DNA of 31,824 nucleotides, taken from positions 1-31,824 of the forward strand of contig JAMYHL010000183.1 in NCBI GenBank assembly GCA_025531455.1, read 5' to 3'. This stretch comes from Apiotrichum sp. Y4204 (Eukaryota > Basidiomycota > Tremellomycetes > Trichosporonales > Trichosporonaceae). A program made the translations under genes and the position numbers. The notes beneath the pieces were generated by a model that saw only the letters and a program-made list of their open reading frames with translations, was not told the origin of the DNA and ran no database searches. Below, in pieces: positions 2,218 through 6,151 of the stretch (position 1 is its first letter; each line of letters starts with the position of its first letter).

Positions 2218-6151
<3,934 letters not shown>

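Follow-up and report, generated by a model that had tools for sequence, protein, structure and literature searches.

Alanine meanings for the arginine codons AGA and AGG (AGR) have been inferred from sequence in the mitochondria of two groups of green algae. In the Sphaeropleales, as reported, a tRNA-Ala(UCU) is predicted in some members and disappearance of the codon was proposed to have preceded its capture (PMC6821328), and in the pedinophyte order Marsupiomonadales both arginine codons are described as meaning alanine order-wide, with a mitochondrial tRNA(UCU) (PMC12574857). A third system is fungal: in the mitochondria of Ashbya (Eremothecium), CUU and CUA are read as alanine through a G3:U70 tRNA charged by alanyl-tRNA synthetase (AlaRS), as mass spectrometry (for CUA) and charging experiments showed (PMC3874161). 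Here, we describe a Trichosporonales-like mitochondrion in which AGA is very probably translated as alanine by way of a tRNA(UCU) that is encoded in the mitochondrial DNA and is a predicted substrate of AlaRS.

The case has something in common with each of these. It shares the AGR box and the alanine meaning with the Sphaeropleales, but those green algae are said to use AGG alone more often (PMC6821328) whereas this basidiomycete yeast uses only AGA; on a simple reading the two origins are independent. The likeness to the Marsupiomonadales extends to the mitochondrial tRNA(UCU), yet that order has reportedly turned UUA and UUG into stops (PMC12574857), and UUA is the main leucine codon here (361 occurrences). 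As in Ashbya, a fungal mitochondrion carries a G3:U70 tRNA for a foreign codon; unlike in that ascomycete, where CUN codons changed (PMC3874161), the codon is AGA, and CTA, CTT, CTG and CTC stay leucine. The original prediction knew of no fungal AGA-to-alanine report, and we too found none in the open-access literature; the available part of a Saccharomycotina survey (PMC10701893) holds nothing on the meaning of AGA. As far as the open-access literature shows, this would be the first fungal code of the kind, with the AGR box, the alanine meaning and the tRNA change already known from green algae (PMC6821328, PMC12574857).

The window, by which we mean the whole stretch of DNA analyzed, is a contig of 31,824 bases from an assembly of 48.9 Mb in 182 contigs. 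It holds a complete fungal mitochondrial gene set (Table 1): cox1-3, cob, nad1-6, nad4L, atp6, atp8, atp9, rps3, rns, rnl and 24 tRNA genes, one of which, trnC, was detected only by ARAGORN in metazoan mode. The closest named proteins among the matches listed are from Trichosporonales; on the same footing, nad5 is 95% identical to that of Apiotrichum gracile, with which the window groups in a nad5 tree, and nad4 is 84% identical to that of Cutaneotrichosporon mucoides. Several other features of the contig may be recorded here. An interruption of about 166 bases, containing an in-frame stop, divides the atp9 gene (503-619 and 232-336, minus strand; boundaries set by hand); this is short for a group I intron. 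An open reading frame, orf325 (29590-30567), has no Pfam match and contains eight AGA codons and one AGG. The trnV(UAC) gene is duplicated within a 128-nt inverted repeat (13551-13678 and 25796-25923, 98% complementary), and trnV repeats are also reported for the A. gracile mitogenome (PMC10064765). An intergenic, G+C-richer repeat family (GTTCCTCACTGC...) occurs in both orientations (11285-11339, 18278-18380, 23565-23619 and 30745-30783) and resembles mobile GC clusters. No tRNA-Gly was found in the window by ARAGORN, Rfam or our own scan for NCC anticodons; GGN codons are common.

Table 1. Coordinates of the tRNA genes and AGA-containing genes discussed in the text.
Feature	Coordinates	Strand	AGA codons or diagnostic bases	Evidence
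tRNA(UCU), cognate to AGA	2121-2193	+	G1-C72, G2-C71, G3.U70, G4-C69, A73; predicted alanine acceptor	ARAGORN, Rfam (57.6 bits at 2121-2192), acceptor table
tRNA-Ala(UGC)	18098-18168	+	First four acceptor pairs and A73 identical to tRNA(UCU)	ARAGORN, acceptor table
tRNA-Arg(UCG)	15925-15997	+	A3-U70, U73; expected reader of CGN, kept as arginine	ARAGORN, acceptor table
cox1	2302-2684, 3832-4312, 5429-6151 (exons)	+	1: 4055	Exon model
nad1	11473-12474	-	5, first base at 12099, 11985, 11883, 11742, 11658
nad4	24094-25554	+	9: 24103, 24127, 24151, 24193, 24553, 24748, 24973, 25135, 25513
nad5	26381-27097, 28202-29485 (exons)	+	4: 26975, 27086, 28493, 28748
nad2	16035-17591	+	16059, 16863, 17433, 17448, 17541; columns weakly conserved
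atp6	30972-31739	-	1: 30989-30987
cox3	1077-1889	-	1508-1506
cob	6821-7213, 8483-9259 (exons)	+	9221, close to the C-terminus
nad6	9707-10324	+	9713, 10175
rps3 (VAR1 family)	19045-19734	+	8	Pfam VAR1 (2e-40)

The 14 core genes comprise 4,261 codons including stops, with 86 CGN codons (78 of them CGA), 333 GCN, 29 AGA (28 if nad2 began at ATG 16065 instead of TTG 16035) and no AGG. The original prediction had put AGA at about 27 and AGG at zero; the latter figure stands and the former is slightly low, and AGA is indeed in frame at all eight places it had named: cox1 4055, nad1 12097-12099 and 11881-11883 (minus strand), nad5 27086, 28493 and 28748, nad4 24973, and atp6 30987-30989. Besides AGG, the codons AAG, CAG, CGC, TAG and TGA are missing from the core genes, and codons ending in G are shunned in general (GAG is used five times, and TTG once versus 361 times for TTA), so that the lack of AGG belongs to a wider avoidance and is uninformative about what AGG means. 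TGG is used 62 times in the same genes and trnW (23933-24003) has the anticodon CCA; as TGA is unused, the code 4 meaning of UGA as tryptophan is without support in the window. A weak candidate for a UCA tRNA (18326-18386) appears only with ARAGORN in metazoan mode.

To assign a meaning to AGA, each codon was scored, in the style of Codetta, against the residue profile of its alignment columns, with nad1, nad4 and nad5 each aligned to the best 120 of about 8,000 scored homologs. Homologs with arginine at conserved alanine columns were removed, a filter that favors alanine over arginine and that took out 23, 24 and 31 of the 120 rows for nad1, nad5 and nad4, leaving 97, 96 and 89. Over the 18 AGA sites of the three genes, alanine scored +9.4 nats on the filtered rows, threonine -4.9, serine -6.1, glycine -14.7 and arginine -18.1, which places alanine 27.5 nats ahead of arginine and 14.3 ahead of the next amino acid. 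With the rows unfiltered the scores were 9.8 for alanine and 3.6 for arginine, a margin of 6.2 nats; we read the rise of arginine as the effect of the relatives' own false arginines in the profile. Alanine was the top-scoring meaning in the main run and in all seven variant runs: it reached 9.2 (arginine -23.9) with filtered rows less than 80% identical to the window, 11.1 (arginine -12.0) with heavier pseudocounts, and 3.7 to 10.4 (arginine -10.8 to -13.6) when one gene was dropped at a time. By comparison with NCBI code 4, in which AGA is arginine, every other codon with at least four sites agrees and only AGA departs, in the variant runs as well; in the main filtered run this extends to all remaining codons with at least two sites, and three of the six single-site codons (ATA, ACG and GGC) are off the table, as single sites may be. 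CTA, CTT, CTG and CTC all scored best as leucine, which places the window outside the Ashbya type of CUN reassignment.

The signal is not spread evenly. Alanine is the single best residue at seven of the 18 AGA sites; the other 11 favor threonine (four), glycine (two), serine, a mixture of alanine, asparagine and serine, valine, phenylalanine and arginine (one each), and the victory of alanine therefore rests on seven mostly-alanine columns. The original prediction had proposed tabulating AGA columns over aligned orthologs, and doing so gives alanine as the best meaning overall and arginine as favored at one column of 18. Its broader statement, that AGA is alanine throughout the mitochondrial genome, is borne out by this scoring, by the acceptor stem of the UCU tRNA and by the relatives' arginines at alanine columns, with a scope limited to the core respiratory genes and, for the likelihood, to 18 of 29 sites.

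The most conserved columns allow AGA to be set directly against arginine. Where the filtered homologs are at least 90% alanine, the window has 61 GCN, six AGA and two TCN codons, and where they are at least 90% arginine it has 28 CGN and one AGA; if AGA and CGN were equivalent, one AGA or fewer among these 29 arginine columns would have p = 2.9e-9. As had been predicted, alanine is the family residue at six conserved columns that carry AGA, with the following counts among the best 120 of about 8,000 homologs: nad1-126, A109 R11; nad1-198, A113 R7; nad4-294, A98 R19 S2 V1; nad5-236, A102 R10 S8; nad5-337, A115 R5; and nad5-422, A101 R16 S3. The rows with arginine at these columns we take to reflect the same misreading of AGA in other species. 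That AGA still means arginine and that these sites are ordinary substitutions is very unlikely. Such a reading could point to the AGA on a conserved arginine at nad4-154, and to nad4-294, where the five solved-structure chains listed have lysine and a basic residue is evidently tolerated; but it would have to accommodate the scores above, filtered and unfiltered, the avoidance of arginine columns, several simultaneous exchanges of invariant alanines for arginine in complex I, with parallels in relatives, and the G3.U70 pair of the UCU tRNA.

A serine (or threonine) meaning would recall the reading of AGR as serine in invertebrate mitochondria. AGA does fall in columns that are mostly threonine or serine at nad5-199, nad4-474, nad1-245, nad4-34 and nad1-164. 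Among the solved structures listed, cox1-203 (codon 4055) is serine in three of five and alanine in two. Against this, serine and threonine score 15.5 and 14.3 nats below alanine, and the UCU tRNA lacks a long variable arm, a separate tRNA-Ser(GCU) being present for AGY; for threonine in particular, G3.U70 is reported to be an antideterminant for the yeast threonyl enzyme (PMC9976931). Taken together, we regard this alternative as highly improbable. Evidence on the 11 AGA sites outside the likelihood scoring, cox1-203 included, is thinner. Among the solved structures listed, atp6-251 is alanine in three, serine in one and asparagine in one of five, and cox3-128 is threonine in all four. The AGA sites of nad2 and nad6 lie in variable stretches, and a search of solved structures yielded no usable alignment for the eight AGA columns of rps3. 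As for intron-encoded proteins, no solved relative was found for the cob-i1 open reading frame, and that of cox1-i1 matches I-HjeMI, I-AniI and others, at a divergence too great for a firm judgement of its AGA sites.

The tRNA evidence, which does not figure in the original prediction, points in the same direction as the alignments. Only two of the 24 window tRNAs, tRNA-Ala(UGC) and tRNA(UCU), have G3.U70, and no further tRNA with a UCU or CCU anticodon was found in the window by ARAGORN or permissive Rfam scans. The identity elements of alanine tRNAs are given as A73, G2-C71, G3.U70, G4-C69 and G20 in bacteria and as G3-U70 in eukaryotes (PMC9976931), and tRNA(UCU) agrees with them over the acceptor part, which is the part compared. 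The anticodon stem of tRNA(UCU) is irregular, with two pyrimidine-pyrimidine mismatches, and is open in the fold of the free RNA. Its ancestry left no clear trace, as no near neighbor stands out among the window tRNAs (the best, a tRNA-Met, is 62% identical). RNA editing that restores the expected codon would leave G3.U70 and A73 on this tRNA unexplained, and turning AGA into GCN would take an A-to-G together with a G-to-C change, a combination that, to our knowledge, is made by no known editing; we find this explanation scarcely credible.

One codon fits a strict alanine reading poorly. The original prediction held that no AGA falls on a conserved arginine, and this is wrong for nad4 codon 154 (24553), where arginine is found in 119 of the best 120 of about 8,000 homologs; the other 28 of the 29 conserved arginine columns are CGN. 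The five solved-structure chains listed, which we presume to be from plants, have lysine here, so that a basic residue is conserved that a strict alanine reading would lose. A sequencing error is argued against by the closest protein among the matches listed (P0001, 28 member sequences), which is 98% identical and has arginine at all nine nad4 AGA sites, unless it derives from the same data. Either alanine is tolerated at this position in this species or AGA is decoded ambiguously. A softer form of the alanine reading, overlapping with it, is that AGA is mainly alanine with some arginine from residual charging by arginyl-tRNA synthetase (ArgRS). The single AGA on a conserved arginine and the odd anticodon stem would suit such ambiguity, as would the retention of C35 in the anticodon UCU, a base usually read by ArgRS enzymes; the 28 conserved arginine columns written as CGN speak against it, as they would not be required if ambiguity were useful. 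Overall, we consider partial arginine decoding unlikely, if worth keeping in mind.

Returning to AGA as alanine, the homologs suggest that the window is not alone. Where alanine otherwise makes up at least 90% of a column among the best 120 of about 8,000 homologs per gene, the most frequent outlier is arginine: in nad4 it fills 31 cells over eight of 20 such columns (serine 23, glycine 12), in nad1 50 cells over 10 of 15 (glycine 25, serine 12) and in nad5 46 cells over 13 of 33 (serine 43, glycine 18). Alanine columns make up 20 of 289 conserved columns in nad4, 15 of 189 in nad1 and 33 of 381 in nad5, and yet they hold 31 of 43, 50 of 81 and 46 of 76 of the arginine cells at conserved columns in these best 120; many of the remaining cells are on one nad1 serine column and one nad5 leucine column. 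Genuine arginines would be expected to favor lysine columns, and in rows without arginine at alanine columns the arginine outliers do sit on lysine columns in 14 of 17 cells for nad5, 11 of 19 for nad1 and two of nine for nad4.

In a quick nad5 tree of 121 rows including the window, built with the trait columns excluded, 24 rows carry arginine (for the window, AGA) at an alanine column, and 20 of these, the window among them, fall in a single clade of 24 rows (SH-aLRT 99) that includes A. gracile, A. gamsii, Cutaneotrichosporon cavernicola and C. spelunceum. The change thus looks clade-wide, as judged from proteins translated by others. Arginine is also found at nad4-294 in Trichosporon inkin (P0021) and C. 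mucoides (P0005), and AGA is probably read as alanine in most of the Trichosporonales. An order-wide change is argued against by the four rows of the nad5 clade that have no arginine at alanine columns and by nad1 of Pascua guehoae (P0127), which has none at the five AGA sites. The four arginine-bearing rows outside the clade (P0304, P0305, P0314 and P0320; two are on long branches) are possible further origins of the code, and the six trait changes needed on this tree leave room for extra origins or losses. Two other nad5 records (P0295 and P0300), of Cryptococcus type and filed under the bacterial names Prescottella soli and Myceligenerans halotolerans, are probably contaminated.

Published Trichosporonales mitogenomes were annotated with code 4, and the accessible text of these papers mentions no change (PMC10064765, PMC7954414, PMC10568926). 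The A. gracile mitogenome, annotated with code 4, is reported to have two arginine tRNAs that share one anticodon, which is unnamed there, so that it may have a second UCU tRNA; Ka/Ks values for cob and rps3 are reported to exceed 1 (PMC10064765). Both observations may bear on an AGA change.

A distant fungal mitochondrial contig (PAQV01000020.1, our L010), found in a scan of genome contigs where it is filed in a Rhodobacteraceae MAG, serves as a control. It has neither AGA nor AGG in the aligned gene parts. Eight AGA sites of the window can be compared with it, and five of them are GCN codons there: cox1-203 (GCT), cox3-128 (GCA), nad5-236, nad5-337 and nad5-422; the other three are AGT (serine, nad5-199), AAC (asparagine, nad6-3) and ACA (threonine, nad6-157). 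This fits a route by codon disappearance, as seen in one lineage. Its apparent matches to nad2 and nad4 were rejected as cross-matches to its nad5 gene, a second contig from the scan (L011, filed as Anaplasmataceae) was left out of the comparison, and queries with nad1 (P0121) and cox1 exon 3 gave no match among viral contigs.

How might the code have come about? An ancestor with a strong preference for A+T and for CGA could have left AGR codons rare, and the rare AGA could then have been captured by a tRNA(UCU) that had acquired alanine identity; since then, AGA would have been exchanged with GCN as a synonymous codon inside the clade, and the unused AGG would be decoded like AGA. The charging enzyme would be nuclear. 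AlaRS is present at two loci (C122 and C123) that look like homeologs, and other contigs give two short hits confined to the distal end of the profile; at both loci an in-frame upstream methionine adds MLLARSLRS(F/L)QPARLAAASVS(P/L)FLRHSVTHSSS ahead of MSMADSF, a stretch that is rich in arginine, has no acidic residues and, by eye, looks like a mitochondrial leader. AlaRS made from this upstream start would be imported into the mitochondrion and would charge tRNA(UCU), which ArgRS would charge hardly or not at all. ArgRS is likewise found at two loci (C114 and C115), and the presence of each enzyme at two similar loci suggests a hybrid or diploid assembly.

It is tempting to go further, and we lean somewhat toward a picture in which AGA means alanine across most Trichosporonales, opportunistic pathogens included, and acquired that meaning separately in one or more further lines of tremellomycetes or basidiomycetes (P0304, P0305, or P0314 and P0320) after an ancestral drain of AGR codons; the window may then represent a late step, in which the AGA at nad4-154 and the irregularity of the anticodon stem would be remnants of a time when decoding was ambiguous. 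If AGA is indeed alanine here and in the relatives, the kind of tRNA change behind it would be shared with unrelated green algae, and the published respiratory-complex proteins of many species in a yeast order would contain false arginines, with consequences for phylogenies, selection tests and structure models. The differing mixtures of arginine (presumed AGA) and alanine that these species show at the same alanine sites would then make the order a natural experiment in which a sense codon's change of meaning can be followed in fine detail.
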